A stretch of 64,000 nucleotides of DNA from Robiginitalea aurantiaca (lineage in GTDB: Bacteria > Bacteroidota > Bacteroidia > Flavobacteriales > Flavobacteriaceae). Made by a program: the position numbers and the translations under genes. Below, one piece after another: positions 1 through 15,294 of the stretch. The DNA is taken from positions 186,001 through 250,000 of the forward strand of contig NZ_JAUDUY010000001.1 in the NCBI RefSeq assembly GCF_030380815.1. Reading direction: 5' to 3'. The notes under the pieces were generated by a model that worked only from the letters and a program-made list of their open reading frames with translations, was not told the DNA's origin and searched no databases. Within the stretch, counting starts at the first letter, position 1; each line of letters opens with the position of its first letter.

Positions 1-2
1 GC

Positions 3-89
3 GAAAGGGATGTGGTCACCGTGGCCCAGATCATTTTAAGGCTGCGAAATGAGCCATTATTGACTGAAGACCAAATCATTCATGTTTAG
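3..89 (+). CDS. 3' end of a DEDDy 3'-5' exonuclease (DNA_pol_B_exo2 family), cut by window edge
   Basis: The frame is open from base 3 and ends with TAG at 87-89. It encodes the last 28 residues of a predicted 3'-5' exonuclease related to the PolB exonuclease domain. The readable part starts at CERD, the end of the exoIII motif Y-x3-D that supplies a catalytic Asp, and runs through TVAQIILRLRNE. It may be the tail of the intact gene lying upstream, or only another displaced 3' end like the five copies that follow. The window edge prevents a choice. The last 40 bases are nearly identical to the copy ending at 6117. Confidence 0.6.
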   Translation, partial: ERDVVTVAQIILRLRNEPLLTEDQIIHV

Positions 90-94
90 AGGCT

Positions 95-390
95 TTAAGC
101 CAGCCGGTGCTGCCCATCGTCCACCCTGTAGAGAGTAAAGGGAATACAGTGTAACACTTCATACAACTCCTTGTCTTTTATCATAGGCAGGGCATGAATA
201 TCCAATACCCGTTTCAACCCTCCTCAATCGTTATATCGTCAGCATTAGAACTAAAGGACTCTATAAACCTTAAATGAGAAACCTTTTAGCTTAAGCTTTG
301 TTTGTTTTGGGATAGCCTTGCCGATAGGTTTCTTGTGAATGAAAATAAGATCGAAGCCATAAGAATATGTCAAGCCATTTTTAAATTAGA
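95..390 (-). pseudogene. Possible decayed minus-strand coding remnant
   Basis: This 354-base gap between the first exonuclease tail and the S41 gene has no intact gene. On the minus strand, coding-like stretches follow one another in shifted frames. One, of about 40 codons, contains IHKKPIGKAIPKQTKLKLKG. A second contains FIESFSSNADDITIEEG. A third, starting in the run LKRVLDIHALPMIKDKELYE, ends with TAA at 95-97. They would join into one protein only after at least two frameshifts. I recognise no family. Open runs this short can arise by chance, so confidence is low. On the plus strand a 34-codon GTG-initiated frame (335-439) also ends just before the next gene and is equally uncertain. Confidence 0.25.
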
Positions 391-443
391 TTGTTATCAC
401 GCCAATGTCAAACAAATGCTGGATAAAATAAAAATATAAGATT

Positions 444-1544
444 ATGAGTGCCAATTACACTAAGATTAAACTACTCCTTGTAGTTTTCATTTTTGCAGCA
501 GTTAATGCCTGTAAGGACAAATCTCCCGAAAAACCACTTAAGCCACTAAACGCAGACTTAATAGAAGTAGCAGATAGTATTTCTGTATTAATGAACACTT
601 TTCATTATAACCCCAAAGAGTTAACCACAGATAAATACCTGCAATTAGAAAAAGAGGTGAAAAACCTTGCAGAAACTGCTCAAACTAAAGAAGAGTTTAT
701 TAGGGAGTATAATTTGTTATGGCAAAATGGTCCTTTCTCGCATGTGCGTCTGGATAACATGAAACAGCCAGCTCAGGAAATAGCAAAATTCATTGATACC
801 CTGAGAGTGGGCGATCAAAGCGTGTCGTTGGAATGGATGGAGAATACGGCCATTTTGACGGTAAATACGATGATGGGTGTGGATACGAAAGAAAGGGTGG
901 AAGACGCCTATAAAGAGATTGACAAGAGGGACATTGAATATCTCATTGTAGACCTGAGAAATAACGATGGGGGAACTTTTGCCGGGATCCCACTTATAGC
1001 CCATCTGATCTCGGATCCACTGGAAATAGGCGTATTTGTTTCACAGAAATGGTGGAACAGTAACTCAAACCCTCCAATTAAGGAGAATACCCTGGGCCTC
1101 ACACCATGGCAGGGATGGTCGATTCAAACTTTCTGGAATGACGCACAAGAGAATCCGCTTACCCGGCTCCAAATCCAGCCGATGGCTCCACGTTTCGATG
1201 GGCAGGTGTATGTTTTGATCAGTGATAACGCCTTTAGTGCGGCCGAGTTAACATCCGATGGCTTGGCCAATATAGAGAATGTATCGCTTATAGGAGAAAC
1301 CACTGGCGGGGAAGTACTTTCCCAAAAGATGTATGATCTGCCAATGGATATGCAACTATCAATTCCTATTGCCGATTACTATTCTTTTCGAATAGGCAGA
1401 ATCGAAGGCCAGGGAGTGAGTCCCGATATAGAAATAGATCCTCGGGTGGCAAAGGATCTCGCGATATCTTTAACAAACGGAGTGAATCTGGAAGATGCCG
1501 TAACAAAAGCTAAAGACGATCTAAAAAATATGTCAAAAAATTAA
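444..1544 (+). CDS. S41 family peptidase-like lipoprotein
   Basis: A 366-residue protein with a lipoprotein signal: hydrophobic residues about 8-21 and a lipobox ending AVNAC, so it is probably anchored in the envelope facing the periplasm. The C-terminal half has the tail-specific protease (S41) fold signatures: LIVDLRNNDGG near residue 170 and NAFSAAELTSDGL with the likely nucleophile Ser265, followed by GETTGGE. No PDZ domain is evident, which places it nearer the IRBP-like than the CtpA-like branch. Proteolysis of periplasmic proteins or peptides is the expected role, but the substrate is unknown. It is the sole gene between the first two exonuclease-end repeats and is A+T-richer than genes beyond 9 kb. 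Confidence 0.82.
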   Translation: MSANYTKIKLLLVVFIFAAVNACKDKSPEKPLKPLNADLIEVADSISVLMNTFHYNPKELTTDKYLQLEKEVKNLAETAQTKEEFIREYNLLWQNGPFSHVRLDNMKQPAQEIAKFIDTLRVGDQSVSLEWMENTAILTVNTMMGVDTKERVEDAYKEIDKRDIEYLIVDLRNNDGGTFAGIPLIAHLISDPLEIGVFVSQKWWNSNSNPPIKENTLGLTPWQGWSIQTFWNDAQENPLTRLQIQPMAPRFDGQVYVLISDNAFSAAELTSDGLANIENVSLIGETTGGEVLSQKMYDLPMDMQLSIPIADYYSFRIGRIEGQGVSPDIEIDPRVAKDLAISLTNGVNLEDAVTKAKDDLKNMSKN

Positions 1545-1649
1545 GTTTTTAAGCGAGTAAAACATAATTAGGTTTAGGACAGCTACATTCTTGTTATCTA
1601 CCCTGACAAGGCAATCTTATTCAGATAGAATTTGCCGCCCTGCAATTTG

Positions 1650-1776
1650 TTTATGAAAAAAAGGCCTGGATCGCATTATTCAATACTGCGAACAGGATGT
1701 GATTACCGTGGCCCAGATCATTTTAAGGCTGCGGAATGAGGAATTGTGGACGGAAGCCGAAATAGTCTATATTTAG
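1650..1776 (+). pseudogene. Exonuclease 3'-end repeat, copy 2 (5'-truncated)
   Basis: The reading frame VYEKKGLDRIIQYCEQDVIT followed by VAQIILRLRNEE and a TAG at 1774-1776 matches the end of the DNA_pol_B_exo2 exonuclease. The exoIII motif Y-x3-D (YCEQD) is kept. The segment coding for the Trp-to-Asp-Gly half present in copies 3 and 5 is missing, with similarity fading just before 1650. There is no start codon of its own. It is the most diverged of the open-frame copies, mostly at third codon positions. The rest of the 387-base gap (1545-1931) shows nothing recognisable. Confidence 0.8.
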
Positions 1777-1931
1777 AAGTATTCCACCAGACCGTGAATT
1801 GTTCTTCACAAATAAATCATCAATTACTACAATATAAAAAGAGATCTGAGGTCTAAATGAATCGAGCAAGTCTGTAACATTGCTCCCCGTTAAACGTCAT
1901 AACTTAAAACCAACTATAAAGTCAAACAAGA

Positions 1932-2378
1932 TTGAGTACAAAAAGCTCCAGGCCTAAATCATTGACGGATTACAGAATCAACATAAAAATCAAACTAGCC
2001 TTTCTTTGGGCTTCATTGATGTTCCTGTACATCTATGCCGACTATTTTCAGCTAATGACCCCAGGTAAACTGGAGCGAATGATAGAGATGCAAACACCAA
2101 TGGGACCAACATCGCCGGGGCTATTGGTGATATTCTCTCTGATTTTGATTGTTCCGGCCCTGATGATATTTCTATCCGTCTTTTTAACAGCGCAAATCAA
2201 TAAATGGTTAAACCTTGTAACTGCATTCCTATATGCGAGTATTTCAATTCTGATTATCGTTTCTAATATCGGTTATGAGTGGCATACATTCTATATTTTA
2301 TTCAACCTGGTAGAACTTCTGATATTCGCCCTGATCATTTCACAGGCATGGAAATGGCCGAGGGGTGAATCTGCATGA
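1932..2378 (+). CDS. DUF6326-like integral membrane protein
   Basis: A 148-residue protein with four predicted membrane spans (about 22-40, 65-88, 93-112 and 118-138). The motif KLAFLWASLMFLYIYADYF in span 1 resembles the DUF6326 family of small Bacteroidota membrane proteins, of unknown function. The start is TTG at 1932. No ATG precedes the first conserved span, so TTG is the best choice. It lies 51 bases upstream of a DUF4386 gene in the same direction and the two form one cargo unit between repeats 2 and 3. The family name is from memory of the motif and could be wrong; the membrane topology is clear. Confidence 0.6.
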   Translation: MSTKSSRPKSLTDYRINIKIKLAFLWASLMFLYIYADYFQLMTPGKLERMIEMQTPMGPTSPGLLVIFSLILIVPALMIFLSVFLTAQINKWLNLVTAFLYASISILIIVSNIGYEWHTFYILFNLVELLIFALIISQAWKWPRGESA

Positions 2379-2429
2379 TCAACAGATAACATTTATATCT
2401 AATCCGCAAAAGAACGAATACCTATTACT

Positions 2430-3113
2430 ATGATTGCAAATGATAAACAAAGTCCGTTAGTTGCTACAGCAAGAACTGCTGGAATCTGGTACCTAATGTT
2501 GGCCATTTCAGGCATTTTAGGATTTATGGTATTTCATAAACAGGTTTATACTGCGGACCCCCAGCAAACACTTAACAATTTGGTAGAAGGAGAATCCCTT
2601 GCACGCCTTCGCCTGCTGCTAGAATTTGCAATCATTCTCTCTCAAGCACTAGCCGCCATCTGGTTTTACAGATTATTCCGCAACATCAATGAGTGGGCCG
2701 CCCTGGCAACTGGAATTTGGGGAACTGTGAATGCCGTTGTAATTATGGTTAGTGCCATATCTATGGGTGCTGCCATTAAAATTGGCCTGTCTTCCGGAGT
2801 GATGGAAGATAAAGTTGTATTAATTGACTTACTTAATAATTTGATCTCCAACTCCTGGAATATAGGAGGCCTATTCTTTGGTCTTTGGCTTATCCCTATG
2901 GGCTACATCATTACTAGCTCAAAAAGAATGCCTGTCTGGTTAGGCAGAACTTTGATAATAGGAGGTTTTGGTTATTTGATTAGTACAGCCATAAGGTACG
3001 CAGGTGTTTCAGGTTCATGGGTAGGCATCCTAACTATACCTGCTACAATAGGTGAGTTCTGGATGATAGGCTATTTATTGATTTTCGGAATACGACCAGA
3101 GAATAAAAAATGA
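2430..3113 (+). CDS. DUF4386 domain-containing membrane protein
   Basis: A 227-residue polytopic membrane protein with about six spans. The N-terminal ATARTAGIWYLMLAISGI segment and the central FYRLFRNINEWAALATGIWG segment are typical of DUF4386, a family of unknown function often found beside stress or transport genes in Bacteroidota and Firmicutes. Length agrees with the family. It follows the DUF6326-like gene at 51 bases and is probably co-transcribed with it. It ends shortly before the best preserved exonuclease-end repeat. Confidence 0.8.
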   Translation: MIANDKQSPLVATARTAGIWYLMLAISGILGFMVFHKQVYTADPQQTLNNLVEGESLARLRLLLEFAIILSQALAAIWFYRLFRNINEWAALATGIWGTVNAVVIMVSAISMGAAIKIGLSSGVMEDKVVLIDLLNNLISNSWNIGGLFFGLWLIPMGYIITSSKRMPVWLGRTLIIGGFGYLISTAIRYAGVSGSWVGILTIPATIGEFWMIGYLLIFGIRPENKK

Positions 3114-3243
3114 GTAATAAAACCAAAAACAGCCATAAGAACAATACATCTGATCTTACTTTATTGGAGTCTATAATTCATCCGATTTAATGCACACCAG
3201 TATTCACCTTCATTGAAATTTTTGTTTTTTTAGTTATTAAAAA

Positions 3244-3489
3244 TTAGACATCTGGCGGTTTGGTGATTACAAGCATTACACCTCCCTGAAGTTACTGGCC
3301 TACGTATTGGGGGTACCTTCTCCCAAGGAGGACATTGACGGGAGCATGGTCAGGGAGGTATATTATGAAGAAAATGATCTGGAACGGATTACCAAATACT
3401 GCGAAAGGGATGTGGTCACCGTGGCACAGGTGTTTTTAAGGCTTCGGAATGAGGAGCTCTTGACGGAAGACCAGATCGTTTATGTTTAG
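3244..3489 (+). pseudogene. Exonuclease 3'-end repeat, copy 3 (longest open copy)
   Basis: An open frame reads KLDIWRFGDYKHYTSLKLL and continues through VPSPKEDIDGSMVREVYY, EENDLERITKYCERDVVTV and AQVFLRLRNEELLTED to TAG at 3487-3489. This is about 80 residues, the C-terminal third of a DNA_pol_B_exo2 exonuclease including exoIII (YCERD). The exoI and exoII motifs are absent, so the fragment cannot be active. The ATG at 3307 is internal to the conserved domain and not a real start. Copy 3 and copy 5 are almost identical over the middle stretch (DIDGSMVREV to VAQVFLR) but differ at most synonymous sites before it. The remainder of the gap 3114-3560 holds nothing else recognisable. Confidence 0.88.
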
Positions 3490-3560
3490 AAACATTTAAA
3501 TACTTCCCTTAACTTAAAGAGATATAATTATGTTTATTTGAAGGTTCACAACTATACATT

Positions 3561-4634
3561 ATGAAGAAAATTCTATTTACAACCATCCTACTCGTTACAC
3601 TGTCTTGTGCAGACACTAAAAAAAATATAGAGGAGGATAAATCCTTAATGGACCAAAGCTATTTCAGACATTTAAGCTATTTAATAAACATCAAAAATGA
3701 AGTAGCACAGGAGCATTGGCCTGACTTCGCAGAAAATGATTTTTATGCACCGGTAGTATATTACAGTAAAGAAAATGCCTTCGTACTTAACCCCAACGAA
3801 CATATTCGTAAAATTACCGATCGACCACAAGAGCTATCTTTCAATAAAGTACCGGTCATCAAACTATCGGAAACGTATACAGATACAACCAGCCTGAAGT
3901 TTAATAATGGTATGACTAGTGACAGTACTTCCTTTGCCTACATGCAACCCGTTTTATATTTCCAGAGTTTTGAATTGACCAAAAAATTCCTTCAAGACGA
4001 CCTTGTTGATATTCAAGATTGGTCAATTATGGTTATTCACGAGCTATTTCATTCATATGAATGGTCAATCCCAGAAATGTTTGAATATGCCGAAACAGTG
4101 TCGAAACATATGCCTGGAGGGCCTGATAATTTCCTTGGTTCTTATCACCAAGATCTTGAGTGGTATAAAGAAAGCGTTAAACAAGAAAATGAGCTGTTGA
4201 AGGAAATTTGGATTGATGAAGCTGACTTAATTCAAAATCTCAATAAATATAATTCACTTCGTAATCAGAGGATTGAAAGAATAAAAAGGGAATACGATGT
4301 TGACATTCGTATTGCTGAAGATTACGAAATCACAATTGAAGGACAAGCAAGATATTTTGAATCATTAGTTAAAAGATATCTATCTAAAAATGTTCCTGAA
4401 GCAGCTTTCTTGACGCAAGAAGATAAGGAAGGTATCACCAATATGTTTAAAGGGTATGAGGTTTCAAAAGACAAAAACCTATCGGACATCTTTAACAATA
4501 GATATTATTATCCAATGGGTTATAACATTTCCATGATTCTTGAAAAATATAATGTAGACTATAAAAATTCGATTTTTAGAGAAGAACAAAACATCCATCA
4601 CTATCTGGAAGAATTAAAAAACTCACAACAATAA
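3561..4634 (+). CDS. Putative zinc metallopeptidase lipoprotein (HExxH)
   Basis: A 357-residue protein with a lipoprotein signal (MKKILFTTILLVTLSC) followed by a charged linker. The key feature is VIHELFHSYEW, an HExxH zinc-binding motif at His160-Glu161-His164. About 100 residues later TIEGQARYFES offers Glu260 in an E-G-x-A-x-Y context, as in the third ligand of gluzincin-type peptidases. I do not recognise a named family. The likely role is a periplasm-facing or surface metallopeptidase, but catalysis is inferred from the motif only. It is the most A+T-rich gene of the window and sits alone between repeats 3 and 4, consistent with acquisition by transfer. Confidence 0.65.
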   Translation: MKKILFTTILLVTLSCADTKKNIEEDKSLMDQSYFRHLSYLINIKNEVAQEHWPDFAENDFYAPVVYYSKENAFVLNPNEHIRKITDRPQELSFNKVPVIKLSETYTDTTSLKFNNGMTSDSTSFAYMQPVLYFQSFELTKKFLQDDLVDIQDWSIMVIHELFHSYEWSIPEMFEYAETVSKHMPGGPDNFLGSYHQDLEWYKESVKQENELLKEIWIDEADLIQNLNKYNSLRNQRIERIKREYDVDIRIAEDYEITIEGQARYFESLVKRYLSKNVPEAAFLTQEDKEGITNMFKGYEVSKDKNLSDIFNNRYYYPMGYNISMILEKYNVDYKNSIFREEQNIHHYLEELKNSQQ

Positions 4635-4721
4635 ATAAACGGCACTAAAACGACCGTTTATTTTGACTGTTGCTAAATCAAGAGCAGTATAGAAAGGATA
4701 CGCTTCGTAGTTAGTGTTTAA

Positions 4722-4839
4722 AAATTATACTTCTGGGAATTCGGAGACTTTAAATACTACACCTTCCTGAAGTTACTAGCGTATATTCTGGGTATTCCAT
4801 CCCCAGGATGTGTTATTGACTGAAGACTAAATCTTTTAG
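4722..4839 (+). pseudogene. Exonuclease 3'-end repeat, copy 4 (internally deleted)
   Basis: The frame WEFGDFKYYTFLKLLAYILG then IPSP reproduces the first 25 codons of the repeat unit and then jumps, at about 4805, to bases matching only the last 30 bases of the unit (ttattgactgaagacta). About 130-150 bases of the middle, including exoIII, are gone and the frame is lost. The 19 bases up to the Trp codon closely match those before copy 3. The rest of the 438-base gap 4635-5072 has no gene. A hairpin with arms TGGCAA/TTGCCA at 5008-5028 lacks a T tract and has no assigned role. Confidence 0.8.
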
Positions 4840-5072
4840 ATTTAAGATTAATCCTCCCGCAAGCTCGTAATGTATTTTTCATAAAGAATAGTAGGGAATT
4901 ACTCTGGCTAACTAGGTTCGTGGTTTGTGCATGTAATGTGCTTACAATATTTGCTGTAGTTTTTAGGTTATATAAAAGTTCCGTAGGTACTAGCTAAATC
5001 TCATTGTTGGCAATTATAAGAGTTGCCAGGAATGAAAAACACATCAACTACCAAATACCACTTTAGCCCTTT

Positions 5073-5726
5073 ATGAAGTATTTTTTAGAAGCAATTAAAA
5101 ACTATGCAGTTTTCCAAGGCAGATCGAGTCGAATAGAATTTTGGATGTTCGCACTATTTGGACTCTTAATTATTCCTGTTGCGTTAAGTCTTATTGGAGA
5201 ATTTTTCTTTTATATATATAGTCTGTTTATACTCATCCCCACCTTGGCGATTATGACCAGAAGAGTGCATGATACCGGGAAGCAAGGGGCGTTAGTATTT
5301 CTTGCTTTAATACCCTTCATCGGGTTTATAATCGTTTTAATTTTGTGTCTTCAGGAAGGAAATGCGGGTCCTAATATGTATGGACCCGGGTCCGGAGACA
5401 TCAGGGGCATTGAACCGAATCAACCCGAAAACCAAAGCTCATATCCCAAGACTGCTGTGTCAGATCAGACATCCCGCACAGAACAGCAAAATATCAATCC
5501 TCAGGAGCTGGGCAGGAATAAAGGCTATGGATGCGCATTCGCCTCTGGCGGTTTATTATTAGGCGGCCTGGCCGGCGGAATTATTGGATTTAGTATTGGC
5601 CTTTCCCAAGGGTATACAGGAGGAGAATCTATAGGGGCTATTTTATTTGGAATTATTGGAATACCGATTGGAGCAATCGCAGGAATGGCATTGGGGGCAG
5701 TTTTTGGAAGTAAAAAACGGAGATGA
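5073..5726 (+). CDS. DUF805 membrane protein with glycine-rich C-terminal membrane region
   Basis: A 217-residue protein. Residues 1-115 form a DUF805 domain: YAVFQGRSSRIEFWMFALF, then two or three spans, then MTRRVHDTGKQG, then a GPNMYGPG-type end. DUF805 proteins are inner-membrane proteins of unknown function. Residues 115-150 are a polar linker rich in Gln, Asn and Ser. Residues 150-213 carry two Gly/Ala-rich hydrophobic segments resembling glycine-zipper membrane regions, with a basic tail KKRR. The fused C-terminal half is less usual for the family. It is the only gene between repeats 4 and 5. Confidence 0.8.
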   Translation: MKYFLEAIKNYAVFQGRSSRIEFWMFALFGLLIIPVALSLIGEFFFYIYSLFILIPTLAIMTRRVHDTGKQGALVFLALIPFIGFIIVLILCLQEGNAGPNMYGPGSGDIRGIEPNQPENQSSYPKTAVSDQTSRTEQQNINPQELGRNKGYGCAFASGGLLLGGLAGGIIGFSIGLSQGYTGGESIGAILFGIIGIPIGAIAGMALGAVFGSKKRR

Positions 5727-5866
5727 TGAATTCTTATTTATGAGATTTCTTTCATGGTGAAGGGACCTCATGCTTTTTCTATGTACGAATCATTTGACTC
5801 TATTGATTTGCTTTTACACGGTCATTGACTCCCATGGAAATAATTGCTAGTTCAGATATTAAAAAA

Positions 5867-6117
5867 CCGATCTCTGGAAATTAGGTGATTTTAAGCACTA
5901 CACCTCTTTAAAACTCATGGCTTACGTGCTGGGAATACCCTCCCCAAAAGAAGATATTGACGGGAGCATGGTCAGGGAGGTATTTTATGAAGAAAATGAT
6001 CTGGAACGTATCGTCCATTACTGCGAAAGGGATGTGGTCACCGTGGCACAGGTGTTTTTAAGGCTGCGAAATGAGCCATTATTGACTGAAGACCAAATCG
6101 TTCAGGTTCAGGTATGA
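5867..6117 (+). pseudogene. Exonuclease 3'-end repeat, copy 5 (open, altered stop)
   Basis: The frame TDLWKLGDFKHYTSLKLMAY, then VLGIPSPKEDIDGSMV, REVFYEENDLERIVHYCERD and VVTVAQVFLRLRNEPLLTED, ends QIVQVQV with TGA at 6115-6117 instead of the usual TAG three codons earlier. ExoIII (YCERD) is intact; the N-terminal two thirds of the exonuclease are absent. The ATG at 5917 lies inside the domain and is not a credible start. The final third is nearly identical to copy 1 and the middle to copy 3, so the unit is a mosaic. The rest of the gap 5727-6281 shows no gene. Confidence 0.87.
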
Positions 6118-6281
6118 AATACCCGATAGCCTGCAATTCAGGGAGGATAGGCTTTGTTTATTTTAAACAGCAGGACCCTTGAATATAAATGATTGGAGTC
6201 GCGAGTCGGGATTAGTGCTTTCATAAGATCCTATTTATTACTATTTTGGTTTGTTATCGGTAATTTTTAAAAAAAACATAA

Positions 6282-8177
6282 ATGATGAAAAAATTGGTTT
6301 GCCTGTTTGCTTTTATTACCATTTTGGGATGTAATGAGAATCAATCTTTTGACAGTGACTTGCTGGATCCGGAAGTAATTGATCACAATGTCCAAATGGA
6401 GGTTGAACCCTATGCAGATGAAGAAATATTAAAAAATCTGGCTCCCATTCGCGCCAGGTTTGACAATTATGCCATAACTGAAGACAGTGAATTCATAAAC
6501 GACAGAATGACGTCTTTTGGCAAGCAAATGCCCAAAACCATTTATGAACCTGTAAAGGATAAAGCCTTTTTAATGGCTGGCTGGCAGTTGACATCTACGT
6601 TGATTGTAGTGGGTGATGATGGATTGATTGTTGTGGACCCAGGAGAAAGTGACGAGGCTTCGGGGCGAATACTAGGTGATTTTAGGAAAGAAACAAATAT
6701 CCAACTACCTGTTAAGGCTGTGGTTTATACGCACAGGCATCCTGATCACTCATTTGGTTCTGCGGGAATGGGAGTTACACAAGAGCAGGTCAACAAAGGT
6801 GAAGTAAAAATATTCGCCCATCATCAGTTCATGGAGTACCTGGCCAATGATGCCAGTGTGGTTGGCGCTATTCTTACAGAGCGCACAGCTTACGGTGGGG
6901 CAACCTATTTGGGCCAGAATGAAAAGGGGCTCGTACATGCTGGTTTGGGTCCTACCTTCGCCGGGGGTAAAATTTCCTTTTACCGTCCAACAGATATTGT
7001 TACCGGAAAACTGGAAGCAGAAGTTTCTGGCGTGAAAATGGTTTTGTTTGAGGCCTATGGTGATGCAGAAGACGAAATAGATGTTTATTTTCCGGATCTA
7101 AAGCATGTGCACGGTTCTGAAACGATTCAGGGAGAATCATATCCGAATCTTTACACTTTGAGGGGAACGAAATACCGGGACCTGGTCAAGTGGTATAAAG
7201 GAGTAGATAACCTATTAGACTATGCAAAGATGAGTGACAGTTACAGTCATTCTCATATGAGATCATGGGTTGGAAATGGCTTTATCGTGGAACGAATCCA
7301 AAACTACAGAGATGCCATTCAGTTTACCCACGATCAATCTATTTATTACATGAATCAGGGGGCAACCCCGGAGGAATTGGTAGAACTGGTAAAGTTGCCT
7401 GAAAACCTAAAAAAAGACCCCTGGTTGCAGGAGTTTTACGGTAGTGTGGAACACGTTGTCAGAAATGTTTATAATGGTTATTTAGGCTGGTATTCTGGCG
7501 ATGCCACCGAACTCGCAACCCCTTCCTTTAAGCGAAAGGCAGCACTCTACGTTTCGGCCATGGGGGGACGCGACAATGTCCTTAAAATTGCCAATCAGGC
7601 AATTGATGCCGGGGACTATGGATGGGCGATGGAAATTACTACTCACTTAATACGTTCTAACCCGGAAGATTCGGACGCGCGAAAAGTGAAAGCTAAGGCG
7701 ATGCAAGAATGGGGCTATGATCAGTCGAATATTTATTACAGGAATTTTGCCCTTTCAGGGGCAAAAGAACTCGATGAAACACTTGACAAATCAGGCGCGT
7801 TTGATTTTGCAAACCCTGTCATTATTCAACAATTCGGGATCGGAACCATTCTGGAAAACCTTCGGGTAAAAATTAACGCCTCCAAGGCAACAGATGCCGA
7901 CTTTAAAATAGGATTTAATATTACAGACCGGAATGAAAAGTATGGCTTTCATGTACGAAATGGCATAGCTGCCTTTTATGAGTACGTTCCTGATGATGCC
8001 GATCTGGTAGTTAATATCCCGAGCAATGTGGTATACGATTTCGTCCTGGGTAAGGGACGTGTGAAAGATGCGATTAATAATGGTAACGGCACTGCCGAGG
8101 GCGACATTGACCAGTTGGATGTATTTGCCGGTTTCTTTGATTTTTCAAAATCTGAAATAAACCTGTCTTCAAGATAA
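6282..8177 (+). CDS. Alkylsulfatase-like metallo-beta-lactamase lipoprotein
   Basis: A 631-residue protein of the linear primary-alkylsulfatase type (SdsA1/YjcS group), which hydrolyses alkyl sulfate esters. A lipoprotein signal ends TILGC. The MBL metal motif YTHRHPDH gives His151, His153, Asp155 and His156. Further family marks are HGSETIQG and the following YPNLYTLRGTKYRD, then SYSHSHMRSW with a likely metal His. After that come the helical dimerisation domain (QAIDAGDYGWAMEITTHLI) and a C-terminal SCP2-like domain. The length is normal. Start is the ATG at 6282 or the adjacent ATG at 6285. A sulfatase of this sort would suit a marine surfactant or sulfated-lipid diet. It is the last cargo gene before the decayed copy 6. 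Confidence 0.88.
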   Translation: MMKKLVCLFAFITILGCNENQSFDSDLLDPEVIDHNVQMEVEPYADEEILKNLAPIRARFDNYAITEDSEFINDRMTSFGKQMPKTIYEPVKDKAFLMAGWQLTSTLIVVGDDGLIVVDPGESDEASGRILGDFRKETNIQLPVKAVVYTHRHPDHSFGSAGMGVTQEQVNKGEVKIFAHHQFMEYLANDASVVGAILTERTAYGGATYLGQNEKGLVHAGLGPTFAGGKISFYRPTDIVTGKLEAEVSGVKMVLFEAYGDAEDEIDVYFPDLKHVHGSETIQGESYPNLYTLRGTKYRDLVKWYKGVDNLLDYAKMSDSYSHSHMRSWVGNGFIVERIQNYRDAIQFTHDQSIYYMNQGATPEELVELVKLPENLKKDPWLQEFYGSVEHVVRNVYNGYLGWYSGDATELATPSFKRKAALYVSAMGGRDNVLKIANQAIDAGDYGWAMEITTHLIRSNPEDSDARKVKAKAMQEWGYDQSNIYYRNFALSGAKELDETLDKSGAFDFANPVIIQQFGIGTILENLRVKINASKATDADFKIGFNITDRNEKYGFHVRNGIAAFYEYVPDDADLVVNIPSNVVYDFVLGKGRVKDAINNGNGTAEGDIDQLDVFAGFFDFSKSEINLSSR

Positions 8178-8267
8178 ATCACACGGGCCTGTCTTGATAA
8201 GACATAAAATAAGGGCTTCTTTGAGCTGACCCTTATCTCAGATTAGAGCAATACATCATTTTGCTCC

Positions 8268-8490
8268 ATTTTATGGAAATTCGGCGATTTTAAGCATTAT
8301 GCCTCTCTGATGATGCTGGCCTATATTCCGGGCATTCCTGCACCTTAACAAGATCTGGACGACGACTAAGTCCGATCGGTATATTATGAAGCAAGGGATT
8401 TTGAAGGGATTGCCAGGTGCTATGCGCTAGCCGGCTTCAATAAGGCCCAGGTCTTTTTGAAGTATAGGGGAGAAGTCCCTTTTAAGAGAC
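8268..8490 (+). pseudogene. Exonuclease 3'-end repeat, copy 6 (degenerate)
   Basis: The frame starting WKFGDFKHYASLMMLAYIPG then IPAP meets a stop, continues DLDDD, meets another stop, and resumes VYYEARDFEGIARCYALAGF and KAQVFLKYRGE. Alignment to copies 3 and 5 is clear, but two in-frame stops are present and the exoIII Asp is lost (CYALAG in place of YCERD). This is the most decayed copy and marks the right edge of the array, directly against the 3' end of the opposite-strand EEP gene. In the preceding spacer an inverted repeat ATAAGGG/CCCTTAT (8209-8236) follows the alkylsulfatase gene but lacks a T tract. Confidence 0.82.
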
Positions 8491-8521
8491 AATTAAAACA
8501 TACTAAACAGTATATAAAGAT

Positions 8522-9484
8522 CTACGGCAGGTCGTAATAACGGAGAAGGACGTATACAGGGAAGTGATCTGAATAGCCCCCCAGGTATTTCTTCCCCACA
8601 AAGGTTCTGAAGGGTTTGCCTTTATAGGGTCGTTTCCATTCCTGGAGGAAATGTTCGTCAAAAATATCTGCCTGATCGAAGGTATGGGTTCCCGGAGAGG
8701 TCTTCAGAAAGGAACGTGAGAGTATGATCTGATCAAATACAGACCACTCCCCCCTGTAGTTTGCACTTCCCCTATCTGGGCTTTGCAGGGTTTCCATGGG
8801 ATTATACAGCGGTTTCTGACTCATCAGGTGTCGGATGCTCCTGGAATCCGGACCATCGTTAAAATCCCCCATGATCACATAATTTGGGTTTTCTTCTTCC
8901 ATTTCCAGGGATTCCATAAAGGATAGAATTGTTGTGGCTGCCGCTATTCGCTTAGAATCGGTCCGCTCTGCGCCATCTCTGCGGGATGGCCAGTGATTTA
9001 CGAATATGTGTAAACGTTCCCCATTCAGGTTACCACGCACGTAAGTGATATCGCGGGTGTAATCCCGACCTCCATCATCATTGTAGATTATAACTGGTAT
9101 GGGCTGGCAGTGCTCAGGCTCAAAAAAATCCCGGTGGTAGAGTAGTGCATTGTCGATACCGCGTTCATCCGGAGAATCGTGGTGGATAAAGTCCATGCCA
9201 TTTTTCTTCATGGATTCCATTTCCAGCAGGTCATCCAGCACCTTATCGTTTTCTAATTCGGCAAGCCCCATCAGGACGGGATACTCGACTCTGCTCAGAC
9301 TCCCCAGACGCGAAATGGTTTTACCAATATGCCGTAATTTTTTTTCATACCGTTTCGGGGTCCAATGTTTATGTCCATTGGGCGTGAAATCGTCATCGAG
9401 GACATTCGGCTGGTTTTCCGGGTCAAATAAATTCTCCAGATTATAAAAGCCAACCAAAAGGTTGTTTTCCCTGTCGTCACTCAT
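8522..9484 (-). CDS. Endonuclease/exonuclease/phosphatase (EEP) family protein
   Basis: A 320-residue EEP-fold hydrolase. Motifs in order: FYNLENLFDPEN (metal Asn/Glu), GLAELEND, IFVNHWPSRRDG (catalytic His), VIMGDFNDGPDSRS (Asp/Asn), and YSDHFPV at the end (Asp-His pair). The family cleaves phosphodiester bonds in nucleic acids or phospholipids; the substrate here is unknown. No signal peptide is seen, so it is probably cytoplasmic. A TTG ten codons further upstream is also in frame, but it overlaps a -7 box at 9512-9519, so the ATG at 9484 is preferred. It is divergent from hflX. Confidence 0.87.
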   Translation of the reverse strand: MSDDRENNLLVGFYNLENLFDPENQPNVLDDDFTPNGHKHWTPKRYEKKLRHIGKTISRLGSLSRVEYPVLMGLAELENDKVLDDLLEMESMKKNGMDFIHHDSPDERGIDNALLYHRDFFEPEHCQPIPVIIYNDDGGRDYTRDITYVRGNLNGERLHIFVNHWPSRRDGAERTDSKRIAAATTILSFMESLEMEEENPNYVIMGDFNDGPDSRSIRHLMSQKPLYNPMETLQSPDRGSANYRGEWSVFDQIILSRSFLKTSPGTHTFDQADIFDEHFLQEWKRPYKGKPFRTFVGKKYLGGYSDHFPVYVLLRYYDLP

Positions 9485-9511
9485 TGCATAAAATTTAAGA
9501 GGGGGATTATT

Positions 9512-9519
9512 CAAAAATA
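9512..9519 (-). promoter_or_regulatory. TAnnTTTG -7 box for the EEP gene
   Basis: On the minus strand the bases read TATTTTTG, matching the Bacteroidota -7 consensus. They lie 27 bases upstream of the ATG at 9484. No clear -33 TTG is seen at the expected spacing. Confidence 0.45.
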
Positions 9520-9542
9520 CAAAAGACTTGATCCTGATTCCG

Positions 9543-9550
9543 TAGCTTTG
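9543..9550 (+). promoter_or_regulatory. TAnnTTTG -7 box for hflX
   Basis: TAGCTTTG ends 17 bases before the hflX ATG. It sits back-to-back with the EEP box, giving a compact divergent promoter. The nearest upstream TTG (9528-9530) is closer than the usual spacing. Confidence 0.5.
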
Positions 9551-9567
9551 TAAAAGATCGAGGTTCT

Positions 9568-10794
9568 ATGCTGGACAAAGAGACAATTTCTTACGAACGT
9601 ACTGTACTTGTTGGGATTCTCAACAGGGAACAACCTGAAGAGAAACTCAGGGAATACCTGGATGAACTCGAGTTCTTAACCTATACCGCCGGAGGGGAAG
9701 TTGTAGGACGCTTTATACAGCGTGTGGACACCCCCAATCCAAAAACTTTTGTAGGTAGTGGGAAGATAGCAGAAATCGAAGAATTCGTCAGGGAAAACGA
9801 TGTGGGAGCCGTAATCTTTGACGATGAACTTAGTGCGGTACAACAACGGAATATCGAAAAACAGCTACGCAGGAAGATTCTGGACCGCACCGGGCTGATC
9901 CTGGATATTTTTGCGCAGCGCGCGAGCACGAGCTACGCACGGACCCAGGTGGAGCTGGCCCAATATGAATACCTGCTCCCAAGACTAACGGGTTTGTGGA
10001 CACACCTTGAACGCCAGCGCGGGGGTATCGGAATGCGGGGGCCTGGAGAAACGGAAATAGAAACTGACCGCAGGATTGTACGTGATCGGATTTCTCTTCT
10101 GAAGAAGAAACTCACCCGTATTGATAAACAGATGGAAACCCAAAGAGGCAACCGTGGATCTCTGGTCCGGGTAGCCCTAGTAGGCTATACCAATGTTGGG
10201 AAATCCACGCTGATGAACGTGATCAGCAAAAGTGAGGTCTTTGCGGAGAACAAACTTTTTGCAACCCTGGACACCACGGTACGAAAAGTAGTGCTTGGAA
10301 ACTTGCCCTTCTTACTGAGTGATACCGTTGGATTTATCCGAAAGCTCCCAACTCAACTGGTTGAGAGTTTTAAGAGTACACTCGATGAAGTTCGGGAGGC
10401 GGATTTGTTATTGCACGTCGTAGACATCTCTCATCCGAGTTTTGAGGACCATATTGCGTCTGTAAATCAGATCCTCTCCGAGATAAAATGTGCGGATAAG
10501 CAGACCGTCATGGTTTTCAATAAGATCGATCTGTATAAGCCGGAAACATTGGATGAGGACGATCTGATAACCCCCCGGACGAGCAGGCATTATTCGATGG
10601 GAGAATGGCGAAAGACCTGGATGCACAGAATGGGGGGGAATGCGGTTTTTATTTCGGCCCTGAACAGGGAAAACCTGGATGAATTCCGGAAAACAGTTTA
10701 CCGGGAAGTTCGAAAAATCCACATCAGCAGGTTTCCTTACAACAATTTCTTATATCCGGAGCACCTCGACGAATATACGCAGGAGGAGCCATAG
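9568..10794 (+). CDS. hflX: Ribosome-associated GTPase HflX
   Basis: A 408-residue TRAFAC-class GTPase that binds the ribosome and can split 70S or 100S particles under stress. The N-terminal HflX domain (residues about 1-180) includes TFVGSGKIAEI and ends with the family signature GPGETEIETDRR. The G domain follows: P-loop GYTNVGKST (206-214), G3 DTVGFIRKLP, G4 NKID and a G5 SALN. Length is normal. It starts with ATG 17 bases after a -7 box and is apparently transcribed alone; the next gene is on the opposite strand. Confidence 0.95.
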   Translation: MLDKETISYERTVLVGILNREQPEEKLREYLDELEFLTYTAGGEVVGRFIQRVDTPNPKTFVGSGKIAEIEEFVRENDVGAVIFDDELSAVQQRNIEKQLRRKILDRTGLILDIFAQRASTSYARTQVELAQYEYLLPRLTGLWTHLERQRGGIGMRGPGETEIETDRRIVRDRISLLKKKLTRIDKQMETQRGNRGSLVRVALVGYTNVGKSTLMNVISKSEVFAENKLFATLDTTVRKVVLGNLPFLLSDTVGFIRKLPTQLVESFKSTLDEVREADLLLHVVDISHPSFEDHIASVNQILSEIKCADKQTVMVFNKIDLYKPETLDEDDLITPRTSRHYSMGEWRKTWMHRMGGNAVFISALNRENLDEFRKTVYREVRKIHISRFPYNNFLYPEHLDEYTQEEP

Positions 10795-10842
10795 GACACC
10801 TATTAGGAGTTCGGGAGTTATATAATTATTGCGTTTCCATTC

Positions 10843-11530
10843 TTAGAATTGGAAACCGATGTGCAGAATAAACCCTCTTAAATTACCATTAAAAATAGCA
10901 TCCTCTTCAGGAATTTCCAGGGAATAAGTTCTGTACCCAAGGGAGGTGTAAAAGGTCTTGGTGAAGTGGTACTGTGCCGCCCCGATAAACTGAAAAGATC
11001 CATCCGTCCCGAATACGGGTATTCCGAAATCTGCATACCCTACAAAACCGAATTTCTTCGAAGGATTATACCTGATATTTGCACCCAGTACGGGATCAAT
11101 CCAGCCCCGATCTCTTGCCCCTTCGACATCCCTGGAGCCGCCGACAGTCGATACCAGATCCACGCCAAAGTAGAAGAATTTCAAACCCGCCAGGGCGTCA
11201 ATCTCAAGCTTGGGATTTTTAAACACCCTGTACCCCGCTTCGAGATCCCCGCCGAAATACGTTAGTTTGACGACATTATCCTGAAGCAGTATCTCCAGGG
11301 GTGTAATCGCTTCGCTTTCGAGGATGAGGTTCCGGAATATTAGTAGGTTGTGGCGGTCGGACGAGCTCTCCTTTAAAGCCGATAGCCCAGATATACGGGC
11401 TTACACGAAAATTCCAATTGTTCCAACGGATGGAATCCGTTTCCATCTGGCTTTGGCCAAAAACTGGGCATGCAAAAAGGAGTGTCATGAACACTCCTAG
11501 AAACATTCTGTTTTTAGAACTGTTGTGCAT
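10843..11530 (-). pseudogene. Broken outer-membrane beta-barrel protein gene
   Basis: The 5' part (11530-11276) encodes a signal peptide ending PVFGQSQ and a mature start NFRVSPYIWAIGFKGE, then runs out of frame to a stop at 11276. The 3' part is in another frame. It is open from about 11340, includes ITPLEILLQDNVVKLTYFGG, and continues through FGFVGYADFGIPVFG to a C-terminal Phe (HIGFQF) typical of outer-membrane barrels. The two frames overlap near 11330, where NIPEPHP meets LILESEAITP. Compared with what I expect for this kind of barrel, a block of middle strands seems to be missing, so an internal deletion with frameshift is likelier than a one-base error. Either is possible. Confidence 0.72.
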
Positions 11531-11582
11531 GTGCTTGGCGAATCCCTAAAAGCAATAATACTCCGCCTGAATACGTCTAAAA

Positions 11583-12509
11583 CTAGAAATCATACGTCAG
11601 GCCGAAAAGCCAATAGGTCTGAAGCTTGTTGTCGATGTTGTCAAAAGTAGCTCCTGTATTTCCCAGGGTATTGATTTCATAATTAAGGGCTTCCTGTTTA
11701 TTGTCGCGAAGTCCGAATTCAAACCCGAGGCCAATGTCTCTCCATACCTTGTAGGCGAAATTATTCGTCCAGGTCCAGTTGGAGAGGTTGCTGTCTTTAT
11801 AACTGGCAAAGGCTGAGAACTGGGATTTCCAATTAAATTTCCCGATGGATTTACTGTAATTCGCCAGCAACTTTGCACCGAAAGAAGATTCGAAAATAGC
11901 ATTGTCGTTGCTGAACACGAAGTTGTAGTTGGCAGGGTGTGCGACAATGATCAGGCCATCTATCGGCTTCCAGGTGATACCCACCCCTAAATCGAGATAG
12001 CCGGGGTCGTTGAAATTACTCAGTATCGTTGAGCGGTACTCCATTAAGGTTGAAGCCGCTATTTTATTTGTCAGGTTATACCCGAAAAGTGAGGTGATAT
12101 TAAATACGTCATTAGATTGCCTGTACCCGTTCTGATCGTCCGGGTCATCTTTGTCGTCGAATTTGACCCAACCCAGGTTTATCTGAGCATTGGTATACCA
12201 GAAGTACTTATCCCGATCCAATTTGGCATACGGGTTTATTGTGATACCAATTCGCCCTGCGGAGTTGTTCGGATTCTGTTGCGCATACCAATTATTAAAT
12301 TCAGAAATACTCGCACCGATCGTTCCGAATGCGCCGAATTTCCATCCTGGAAATGCATTGATCTGAGATTCCAAATCTCCGATTCGCCCCTCAATGGCAC
12401 TGACGGAATCTTCTTTTATTTTTTTAGCTTCTTTGAGTTCTTCCAGCGTCTGGCCGTATGAGGATACTCCGGCTATAAGAAAAGTAAATACGAATACGAG
12501 TTTTTTCAT
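11583..12509 (-). CDS. DUF3078 domain-containing outer-membrane protein
   Basis: A 308-residue exported protein with signal peptide (cleavage near SSYGQ), a short coiled coil (LEELKEAKKIKEDSVSAIEG), then alternating beta-strand segments ending in Phe (LFGLTYDF), as in outer-membrane barrels. The pattern GWKFGAFGTIGASISEFNNW matches DUF3078 proteins, whose role is unknown. It is the last gene of the suf operon, following DUF2480, an arrangement common in Flavobacteriia. Its link to Fe-S biogenesis is by position only. Confidence 0.8.
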   Translation of the reverse strand: MKKLVFVFTFLIAGVSSYGQTLEELKEAKKIKEDSVSAIEGRIGDLESQINAFPGWKFGAFGTIGASISEFNNWYAQQNPNNSAGRIGITINPYAKLDRDKYFWYTNAQINLGWVKFDDKDDPDDQNGYRQSNDVFNITSLFGYNLTNKIAASTLMEYRSTILSNFNDPGYLDLGVGITWKPIDGLIIVAHPANYNFVFSNDNAIFESSFGAKLLANYSKSIGKFNWKSQFSAFASYKDSNLSNWTWTNNFAYKVWRDIGLGFEFGLRDNKQEALNYEINTLGNTGATFDNIDNKLQTYWLFGLTYDF

Positions 12510-12569
12510 CTTTTAAAGTTTTTCATAACGGTCTCAAAGATAGGGAAACTAGTGAATTAGATTTTTGCT

Positions 12570-13076
12570 TCAGGTTCTTTTAAATAAAGGAACAGAGGAA
12601 CACGCCTCGCCGAACATTACGGATTTTGCAACTTCCTGGATTCGCTGGATTGCCCAGACATAGGCCGAGGCAGGTACCGGAACATTGCTACACCCTTTGA
12701 TGATTACCGGGCGGTCTTTGAGGGATTCGAGATCAATTGTGCTAAGAGCTTCCCGAAAAAGAATGGTTTCCAGAACTTCAAGGGATCCGACGACCGTTTC
12801 CCGGGCGATGCCCTTGAGGTAATTACCGGCCAACATATAGGCCCAAACAGGAACAATGGCGTCAGTACTGCAGTGAACTGCCACATACCCGTCTTTATAG
12901 GATTCCCATTGATGTTCTTTCAGTGCATTCCGGAATGGGGTTTCCCTTAAGATGAGGCCTTCATCCAGCCACTGGCTCAAATCAATCTCAAAACGGGGCC
13001 CCCTGGGATAGAAGGTTTCCAGGTCCAGGGTGGTTAATTTACTTTTCGCTACGCGGTTGACGATTTCTTTTTCCAT
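12570..13076 (-). CDS. DUF2480 family protein
   Basis: A 168-residue cytoplasmic protein. VAKSKLTTLDLETFYPRG near the start and DAIVPVWAYMLAGNYL in the middle are characteristic of DUF2480, a Bacteroidota family fixed in suf operons. IIKGCSNVPVPASAY, with a Cys near residue 130, may bind a metal or cluster, but this is a guess. It follows the SufT-like gene by 11 bases and is clearly in the same operon. No enzymatic role is established that I know of. Confidence 0.85.
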   Translation of the reverse strand: MEKEIVNRVAKSKLTTLDLETFYPRGPRFEIDLSQWLDEGLILRETPFRNALKEHQWESYKDGYVAVHCSTDAIVPVWAYMLAGNYLKGIARETVVGSLEVLETILFREALSTIDLESLKDRPVIIKGCSNVPVPASAYVWAIQRIQEVAKSVMFGEACSSVPLFKRT

Positions 13077-13087
13077 ACCTGAAGTTA

Positions 13088-13417
13088 TCAGAGCATGCCG
13101 AGTTCCAGTTTGGCTTCTTCGCTCATCAATTCCTGTGTCCAGGGCGGGTCAAAGGTGATTTCCACCTCGGCATCCTTAACCAGATCCAGGGATTTGACTT
13201 TTTCCTCAACTTCTACAGGAAGCGTTTCAGCCACCGGGCAGTTCGGAGAGGTTAGCGTCATAAGGATCCGAACTTCGAGGTCCTCATTTACAAAGACATC
13301 GTAGATCAATCCCAACTCATAAATATCCACAGGGATTTCCGGGTCGTAAATGGTCTTGAGTACCCTTACGATTTTTTCGCCGAGTTCCTGAGTGTCTATT
13401 GTGGTTTCTGATTCCAT
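13088..13417 (-). CDS. sufT: SUF system Fe-S cluster assembly protein, SufT/MIP18-like (DUF59)
   Basis: A 109-residue MIP18/DUF59 protein. KTIYDPEIPVDIYELGLIYD is the family hallmark, and TSPNCPVAE carries the conserved Cys thought to take part in cluster transfer or target maturation. The C-terminal FDPPWTQELMSEEAK matches the SufT and PaaD group. It acts in the cytoplasm as a maturation factor for Fe-S proteins. It sits between sufE and DUF2480 with very short gaps. The symbol is by family analogy. Confidence 0.85.
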   Translation of the reverse strand: MESETTIDTQELGEKIVRVLKTIYDPEIPVDIYELGLIYDVFVNEDLEVRILMTLTSPNCPVAETLPVEVEEKVKSLDLVKDAEVEITFDPPWTQELMSEEAKLELGML

Positions 13418-13445
13418 GGATTCTTTTTTAAAGGTTTAGGTTTAC

Positions 13446-13871
13446 TCAGGATTCTATTTTAGCCTGGTAAGCCAAAGCGTAGAGCTTCAGTTGTTTGATC
13501 ATGCTGACAAGCCCGTTTGCACGTGTGGGGGAAAGATGCTCTTTAAGTCCGATCTCGTCAATAAAATCTGTTTTAGCACTGAGAATATCTGCAGGTTTCT
13601 GGTTGCTGAAAGCGCGGATCAGGATACCGATGATGCCTTTTGTGATTATGGCATCACTGTCGGCAGTAAAAACGACTTTCCCATCCTCCATGTCTGCATG
13701 AACCCAAACCTTGCTCTGACAGCCTTTGATCAGGTGGTCGTCTGTCTTGAATTCATCCGAGATTTTGGGCAGGGATTTTCCGAGTTCAATCATGTATTCG
13801 TACCGCTGCATCCAATCGTCAAACATGGAAAATTCATCGACAATTTCTTCCTGAATCGCTTCGATCTGCAT
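13446..13871 (-). CDS. sufE: Cysteine desulfuration protein SufE
   Basis: A 141-residue sulfur-acceptor protein that takes persulfide sulfur from SufS and stimulates it. The active-site loop reads LIKGCQSKVW with Cys51. DDWMQRYEYMIELGKSLP near the N-terminus and GLKEHLSPTRANGLVSM near the C-terminus are typical. An in-frame TTG six codons upstream (13889) exists, but the ATG at 13871 gives the family's usual N-terminus. It lies 78 bases after sufS. Confidence 0.93.
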   Translation of the reverse strand: MQIEAIQEEIVDEFSMFDDWMQRYEYMIELGKSLPKISDEFKTDDHLIKGCQSKVWVHADMEDGKVVFTADSDAIITKGIIGILIRAFSNQKPADILSAKTDFIDEIGLKEHLSPTRANGLVSMIKQLKLYALAYQAKIES

Positions 13872-13949
13872 CTTTATAATTTTTGTCAAAATTACGACAT
13901 GATAGGCCTATTTTCAAGGGGTACAGATTTCTTCCCTCCTGAAATGCAT

Positions 13950-15173: not shown

Positions 15174-15294
15174 TAAGTTCGGAAATAAAGGGATCCTGTA
15201 ACGATACTTTTAACAAACCGGTGCGAGGACAATTCGAAGGGTCTCATTCGGTCCCCGGATAAAACTATCGGGATTCCCTTTTTAAGCGATGTCC

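Follow-up and report, generated by a model that had tools for sequence, protein, structure and literature searches.

A small array of gene cassettes seems to have been built up by repeated insertion near the 3' end of a conserved exonuclease gene in Robiginitalea aurantiaca. We analyzed a window of 64,000 nucleotides from this genome (G000), positions 186,001 to 250,000 of contig NZ_JAUDUY010000001.1 (G000:C11:186001-250000), at the left end of which partial copies of the end of this gene alternate with unrelated genes. We propose, with a probability of about two in three, that cassettes comparable to those of the staphylococcal cassette chromosome (SCC) were inserted one after the other via half-sites of a serine recombinase, together with homologous exchange between the resulting repeats. 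The putative steps that find support in the sequences compared are the site with its TG edge, the arm that precedes it, a large serine recombinase (LSR) located at the same TG in genome G158, the exchange of 3' ends, the displaced native end and the presence of common cargo across genera.

The target gene encodes a predicted 3'-5' exonuclease of the PF10108 family. An intact copy of 237 codons, whose presence upstream of the window had been anticipated in a preliminary description made from the letters of this DNA, was found 2 kb upstream of it (G000:C11:183330-184043, or 5330-6043 of locus L005, which spans C11:178001-197000; a window position is the L005 position minus 8000). It is followed by the six partial 3'-end copies, with unrelated genes between them, that had been described at these places, and the array reaches a gene of the EEP family and hflX. 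The order is the intact gene, AraC and SnoaL-like genes, copy 1, an S41 peptidase gene, copy 2, DUF6326 and DUF4386 genes, copy 3, the gene of a 357-aa protein, copy 4, a DUF805 gene, copy 5, an alkyl-sulfatase-like gene, copy 6, EEP and hflX. The partial copies correspond to the intact gene from codons 157-160 onward (from codon 199 for copy 2), with tblastn E values from 5e-41 to 1e-7, and these matches are far beyond chance. The repeats are direct and occupy a single place in a single orientation. A profile search of the window genome found four PF10108 matches, all within a single 8.6-kb stretch; these matches are confined to the exonuclease locus.

All six copies lie on the + strand. Copy 1 starts 147 bases upstream of the window (G000:C11:185853), behind the arm TTTTAGAAA, and occupies 1..89 in the window. 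Copy 2 (1657..1776) only covers codons 199-237 and has neither the TGG edge nor the arm. Copy 3 (3253..3489) covers codons 160-237 in an open frame and is preceded at 3225..3252 by a right-end arm, TAGTTATTAAAAATTAGACATC, a putative P-type half-site. Copy 4 (4734..~4846) is truncated by an internal deletion. Copy 5 (5875..6117), behind the right-end arm TATTAAAAAACCGATCTC at 5852..5874, comprises codons 160-237 plus two in an open frame, the usual stop being lost, and copy 6 (8274..8474) is decayed, with internal stops. The common left edge proposed earlier thus stands for most copies, as the TGG of codon 160, and fails for copy 2. The common right edge at the stop codon is simply the end of the gene, which copy 5 overruns by two codons; the sequence beyond it differs by copy, some copies being followed by a common leader.

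To characterize the left edge, we compared 23 copies from 11 genomes, chosen for having the TGG of codon 160; six fragments without it (window copy 2, the second G135 copy, two G435 copies and the L017 and G430 fragments) were excluded. Upstream of the TGG, the copies diverge from the gene and most of them have a common arm, unrelated to the exonuclease, at a constant distance. With at most two mismatches, the arm TATTAAAAA is present at -18..-10 in 17/23 copies (the G158 junction included) and in 0/9 intact genes; the background rate, taken from six of these loci, is 0.65% of positions. A TTA at -23..-21, an A at -5 and a T at -2 are conserved as well. The spacing of the arm is kept although the sequence farther upstream varies, and 17 of the 23 copies have an open frame to codon 237-239. 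Beyond the arm, the right ends fall into families of about 50 to 139 bp that are common to cassettes with different cargo. We regard the left edge of the copies as a putative LSR half-site with a TG core.

The TG also separates segments of different identity. The right end of the cassette with the 357-aa protein (4635..4733, + strand) terminates in the arm GTTTAAAAATTATACTTC; compared with G335, which belongs to another genus, its last 120 nt match at 116/120 positions up to the TG core, followed by lower identity. When matches were counted per 20 nt, copy 4 of L005 and copy 2 of L154 gave 20 and 20 before the TG and 17, 13, 13 and 12 after it, copy 4 being deleted beyond ~80 nt. For copy 1 of L155 and copy 3 of L154 the counts were 17 and 19 before and 18, 15 and 11 after. 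For copy 1 of L155 and copy 5 of L154, they were 12 and 12 before and 20, 20, 19 and 20 after, similarity then continuing for ~140 nt past the stop. Since identity changes at the TG in three pairs, the TG is a real join.

On the other side of the cassettes, a leader of ~100-150 nt behind the stop links 11/39 compared sequences (three after-stop sequences being omitted) from five genera, namely those of L032, G004, G135, G278 and the g124 genomes G335, G428, G432 and G434. In seven g124 sequences, the leader ends before the cargo in a palindrome near GATATAGTTA-N-TAACTATATC, degenerate in one of them; the other four sequences are without the palindrome. When the G335 leader was used as a query against 234 loci, every match was at the exonuclease site, which is a weak control of its specificity because most of these loci derive from that site. 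In the window genome, a leader lies behind copy 4 (4840..4940, + strand; 69.6% identity over 102 nt to the G335 leader, E 1.5e-4) and a palindrome with three mismatches behind the intact gene. That this leader could serve as a promoter is a guess. At 12005-12033 of L155 (original strand), a second palindromic leader end was seen just before a cargo gene, and the ~450 nt from there to the end of the contig yielded no exonuclease copy.

A recombinase that could recognize this site is provided by G158. In this genome, a 5,873-bp insert splits the exonuclease gene between codons 159 and 160, with a TG common to both junctions. It contains genes for a cytosine methyltransferase, a SinI-like restriction enzyme, a 224-aa serine resolvase-like protein and a 508-aa LSR with Resolvase, Recombinase and Zn ribbon domains, whose top match in the PDB is the A118 integrase. 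The stop codon of the LSR gene is 19 bp ahead of the TGG, inside the arm region. Once joined, the two halves of the exonuclease gene encode a 237-aa protein with 197/237 residues identical to that of the congener G347. When the two ends of the insert are put together, the resulting attP forms an inverted repeat around the TG, with 11 complementary pairs in a row; a run of this length occurs at 36/311,768 sampled positions, the loci being partly redundant. One arm of this attP is the cassette arm, with 21-22 bp at 95% to copy 3 of L032 and copy 1 of L156. The restriction-modification element thus has the identical TG site and arm as the cassettes, but it encodes an LSR of its own, and its insertion disrupts the gene. 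The locus concerned (L157, G158:C11:773000-792900) indicates that loss of the exonuclease gene is tolerated, at least in G158. A related element is found elsewhere in the chromosome of G374 (L161, G374:C5:30000-49900, 8404-15836), with a 550-aa LSR, a 225-aa resolvase and genes that by eye are methyltransferase- and nuclease-like.

One could then assume that the arrays are mere scars of repeated autonomous LSR elements. Each would have broken the gene, which was then repaired by an incoming intact gene and its neighbours through recombination in the 5' part, so that the right end of the element and the displaced 3' end alone remain. G158 displays the first step of such a scenario, and the right-end families found across different cargo resemble residual element ends. 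But a fresh illegitimate join would be required for each cassette, and the leader behind the 3' ends is common to cassettes of five genera, which suggests units conserved at both ends. We thus consider this explanation quite unlikely.

Serial cassette insertion, which we prefer, has consequences for the history of the two parts of the gene. Trees were built from the 5' parts (36 rows) and the 3' parts (55 rows), the latter omitting two truncated copies (window copy 4 and that of G005) and L040. In the 5' tree, the genus forms one clade (100/100), within which G000 pairs with G001 as its sister (100/99). In the 3' tree, the EEP-side copies of G000 (copy 6) and of G001 group with the intact ends of the congeners G003, G006 and G007 (100/99), whereas neither G000 nor G001 has its intact end in that group, the G001 end being with window copies 1 and 5 (99/97). 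In approximately unbiased (AU) tests, the 3' data rejected both a sister relation of G000 to G001 (p 0.0006) and monophyly of the genus (p 0.002); on the 5' data, a G001 and G135 grouping was rejected (p 0.00008). Because window copy 6 is a long branch, the EEP-side copy of G001 is placed with more certainty. When the flanks to the right of the array are compared between these two genomes, their DNA becomes similar 3 nt ahead of the TGG in the last copy.

That the EEP-side copies go with the intact ends of the congeners while the own intact ends lie elsewhere is what repeated insertion with restoration of the gene predicts, and the initial suggestion that old ends are pushed downstream is borne out in this respect. 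These trees show that the 3' end of the gene moves, the old end being pushed to the far side of the array, and copy 6 appears to be the displaced original gene end. If a single genome had duplicated the gene end in tandem and genes had later drifted into the gaps, direct repeats in one place and one orientation would equally result. This is hardly credible, since many copies group with the 3' ends of other genera instead of with those of their own genome and cargo is common across genera, and the trees contradict it.

The state of the site in relatives is also informative. In the congener G006, the exonuclease and EEP matches are only 28 bp apart, which represents an empty site and provides the strain with the gene joined directly to the EEP/hflX region that the preliminary description had proposed to look for. 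The congener G007 has the AraC and SnoaL pair (80% and 77% aa identity) plus a DUF4386 gene. Both membrane genes (DUF6326 and DUF4386) are found in G009 and G004, the DUF4386 gene alone in G002, two different genes at the site in G003, 7 kb of different genes with one broken partial copy in G005, and different cargo with two partial copies in G001 (L006 and G001:C249 being one contig, counted once). Cargo and order thus vary among relatives, and the arrangement is not fixed. In other genera, partial copies are present in L032, a Eudoraea metagenome-assembled genome (three), G335 (six), G435 (three) and G135 (two, one of them a fragment), with one copy each in G158, G278, G429 and G432. As side observations, no EEP match was found between the exonuclease gene and hflX in G002, G004, G005, G009 and Zeaxanthinibacter enoshimensis (L117, L119, L120, L123 and L051). 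L209 (G347:C1:775000-794000, reverse) has a long cargo island after the intact exonuclease gene, with genes common to the arrays of other genera, in which a protein search gave no partial exonuclease copies. In L115 (G001:C162), around ~3620-3700 of the reverse strand, the right end of the 357-aa cassette seems to adjoin a 3' fragment of the exonuclease gene with nothing in between, as a deletion of the cargo would leave it.

Searches with the edge pattern at 0 or 1 mismatch returned matches in 5/397 sampled Flavobacteriaceae genomes (G000, G335, G135, G158 and G278), all of them exonuclease copies. At up to three mismatches, 105/397 genomes matched, nearly all with two or three and with a reversed control of similar order, and only matches at 0-1 mismatch were used. 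With a stricter edge pattern and at most one mismatch, G000 was the sole match among 196 genomes sampled across the order. The 78-aa exonuclease tail was without match in plasmid records. It gave 21 matches in phage records, all below 60% identity, and the 20 listed carried an exonuclease annotation or none. In viral contigs, a P-TG-B' pattern (attP-type arm, TG core and exonuclease 3' end) had no match, a symmetric attP-like pattern was found in 22 contigs, and the G158 LSR was without relative.

Cargo crosses genus boundaries. Between G000 and G335, the 357-aa protein is 89% identical in amino acids, compared with 58.6% for EEP, 82% for hflX and 67% for the intact exonuclease. Similarly, the genes of a 339/316-aa protein in L032 and G278 are mostly 90-98% identical in nucleotides when compared segment by segment, with 48-80% for the preceding exonuclease. 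A set of oxidoreductase genes (by eye, phytoene-dehydrogenase-like and flavodoxin/reductase-like) recurs in G135, G158, G435 and G347, its first gene being 86% identical in nucleotides between G135 and G158.

We propose the following mechanism. The central TG of codons 159/160 would be the attB of an LSR family. A cassette would begin with an exonuclease 3' end (234 bp, B'), followed in some cases by a common leader of ~100-150 nt. One or two cargo genes, occasionally more, would come next, and a short right end would close the unit with an attP-type arm (P) and TG. On insertion, the 3' end brought by the cassette would restore the gene, and P-TG-B', with the old 3' end, would be left downstream. 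As insertion rebuilds a working attB, the next cassette can enter in front. Such recombinase-less cassettes could be moved, or could once have been moved, through P-B' x B-B' recombination by a trans-acting LSR like that of G158, and homologous recombination between the 3' repeats would then reshuffle ends and cargo. The earlier suggestion of a system that is either non-autonomous or driven by homologous recombination is thereby sharpened to an LSR half-site with a TG core, with exchange between repeats also taking place.

Several observations weigh against this reading. The arm has three or more mismatches in 6/23 copies, with seven for window copy 6, and copy 2 is without the edge. The G158 insertion breaks the exonuclease gene and does not restore it, and P-B' x B-B' recombination differs from the textbook attP x attB reaction. 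At E <= 1e-45, a G158-like LSR was found in only G158 and G374 among the 397 Flavobacteriaceae genomes, and that of G374 is not at the exonuclease gene. No LSR for the exonuclease site was found in the window genome, where the full-length LSR gene adjoins a truncated yifB-like gene; the cassettes would thus move in trans or be relics. On the 5' data, the AU test did not reject a clade of G003, G006 and G007 (p 0.098), so that their common 3' type may partly be due to descent. The 357-aa cargo is mostly above 90% identical in nucleotides, segment by segment, between G000 and G335, but the preceding 3' ends only ~74%. G003 and G007 carry cargo behind an intact native-type end, which the simple insertion model alone does not explain, and the AraC/SnoaL pair of G007 is also present in G000 behind a different end (70% nucleotide identity). 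Finally, over 160 nt the intact end of G001 is about 97% identical to window copy 1, beyond which the two part. Homologous exchange inside the 3' repeats thus appears to occur as well.

One would wonder whether such exchange could account for everything. The 234-bp 3' ends would let circles or transformed DNA enter and leave by homologous recombination alone, the TG edge being copied from one ancestral serine-recombinase insertion. The mosaic 3' ends, such as that of G001, are in line with this idea, as are two pairs in which 3' end and cargo are unlinked, and no recombinase was noticed in the cargo read by open reading frame in the other arrays, the G158 insert excepted. Crossovers spread across 234 bp, on the other hand, would not be expected to switch identity at the TG in three pairs (one of them comparable over ~80 nt only), nor to keep the arm at a fixed spacing next to differing sequence farther upstream, and a complete recombinase gene sits at the same two bases in G158. 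On balance, homologous recombination alone appears to us an unlikely explanation, though less so than the LSR scars discussed above.

As a possible trans-acting source for serial cassette insertion, the LSR genes of G000, G335 and G435 were considered and rejected: they adjoin a truncated yifB-like gene and would belong to another site. In these three genomes, a yifB/comM-like gene (by eye) is cut at an identical place, after ...SPHH.ISDV, beside a different LSR of 565-587 aa (L205, G000:C49:1-19000, 4654-7581; L210, G000:C44, ~4959; L206 and L207). Of 19 genomes searched for PF07508, five were positive, and these three exceed the others of the 19 in exonuclease copies; this is possibly a coincidence.

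The cargo of the window itself is diverse. An S41-family peptidase (PF03572; 444..1544) has a relative (57% aa) in G435, where it is the first of the cargo genes after the exonuclease. The DUF6326 membrane protein (1932..2378) has relatives in G004, G009 and partly G135, and the DUF4386 membrane protein (2430..3113) in G002, G004, G007, G009 and G135. The 357-aa protein (3561..4634) contains a HELFH metallopeptidase-like motif, read by eye, and has no Pfam match. A DUF805 protein (5073..5726) and an alkyl-sulfatase-like protein of the metallo-beta-lactamase fold (6282..8177) complete the array. All these genes are on the + strand, and the 8/8 cargo genes have the same direction as the exonuclease gene. 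The conserved right flank of the site consists of the EEP-family gene (PF19580; 8522..9514, - strand) and a gene at 9568..10794 (+ strand), which we take to be hflX, as in the preliminary description. As noted there, integrases are absent from the cargo: Pfam revealed no recombinase domain, that of tyrosine recombinases (IntI) included, in the eight cargo proteins. PADLOC assigned none of the eight to a defence family, and no Rfam family matched in seven loci.

This organization shares its logic with known systems. At orfX/rlmH, SCC composite islands and pseudo-SCC elements keep the gene intact, stack in tandem and include recombinase-less elements at the same site, as described in PMC6243372; the array studied here likewise shows insertions close to the 3' end of a conserved gene that stays whole, a displaced end downstream, tandem elements and elements without recombinase. 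The present site differs in its target (a PF10108 exonuclease and not orfX/rlmH), in its hosts (Flavobacteriaceae) and in the size of its units, which in the window are of 1-2.5 kb with one or two genes. Moreover, a crossover 234 bp before the stop means that each cassette must carry 78 codons, unlike in SCC. The SCC recombinases are a Ccr pair, whereas the only recombinase found at the exonuclease site is a single LSR, that of G158.

In tRNA islands, regenerated targets and displaced fragments mark the ends (Islander, PMC4383910), and both features have their counterpart at the exonuclease site. That source deals with tyrosine integrases and tDNA, and calls tandem arrays only with an integrase per island (PMC4383910). 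Here, by contrast, we find a putative serine-recombinase half-site without an integrase per unit. The cassettes also recall integron arrays, in which small promiscuous gene units are stacked at one end and exchanged between species. Unlike in integrons, the repeated unit consists of the end of a gene and an LSR arm, and a tyrosine recombinase domain is present in 0/8 cargo proteins of the window. No IntI was seen beside the array, either in the cargo (Pfam) or in the flanking open reading frames (by eye), the rest of the genome not having been searched for it.

The preliminary description knew of no system built on this gene, and our literature searches agree with it: at the level of titles and abstract openings, with subscription literature mostly outside their reach, they named no system at the exonuclease site, even though the logic resembles that of SCC composite islands. 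The logic is thus known from SCC and tRNA islands, and the exonuclease site has no literature match in these searches. A distinct, still active class of mobile system would consist of recombinase-less cassettes, each with a 234-bp gene end and an LSR half-site, added last-in-first and traded in trans among genera of Flavobacteriaceae; we find this possible yet doubtful. In that class, the leader, present in part of the cassettes, may drive cargo expression. If it were real, it would be the serine-recombinase counterpart of integron cassettes.

More generally, the 3' part of a conserved gene can differ in history from its 5' part. If serial insertion is correct, the displaced 3' ends would give a simple readout of insertion order, the locus would lead to an LSR that has a natural landing site, and the SCC principle would be extended to another phylum with a much longer carried gene end. 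A conserved coding gene would then be a reusable docking site through which Flavobacteriaceae share accessory genes, among them those of a transcription factor, peptidases, a sulfatase-like enzyme and membrane proteins, without the cassettes carrying a recombinase.

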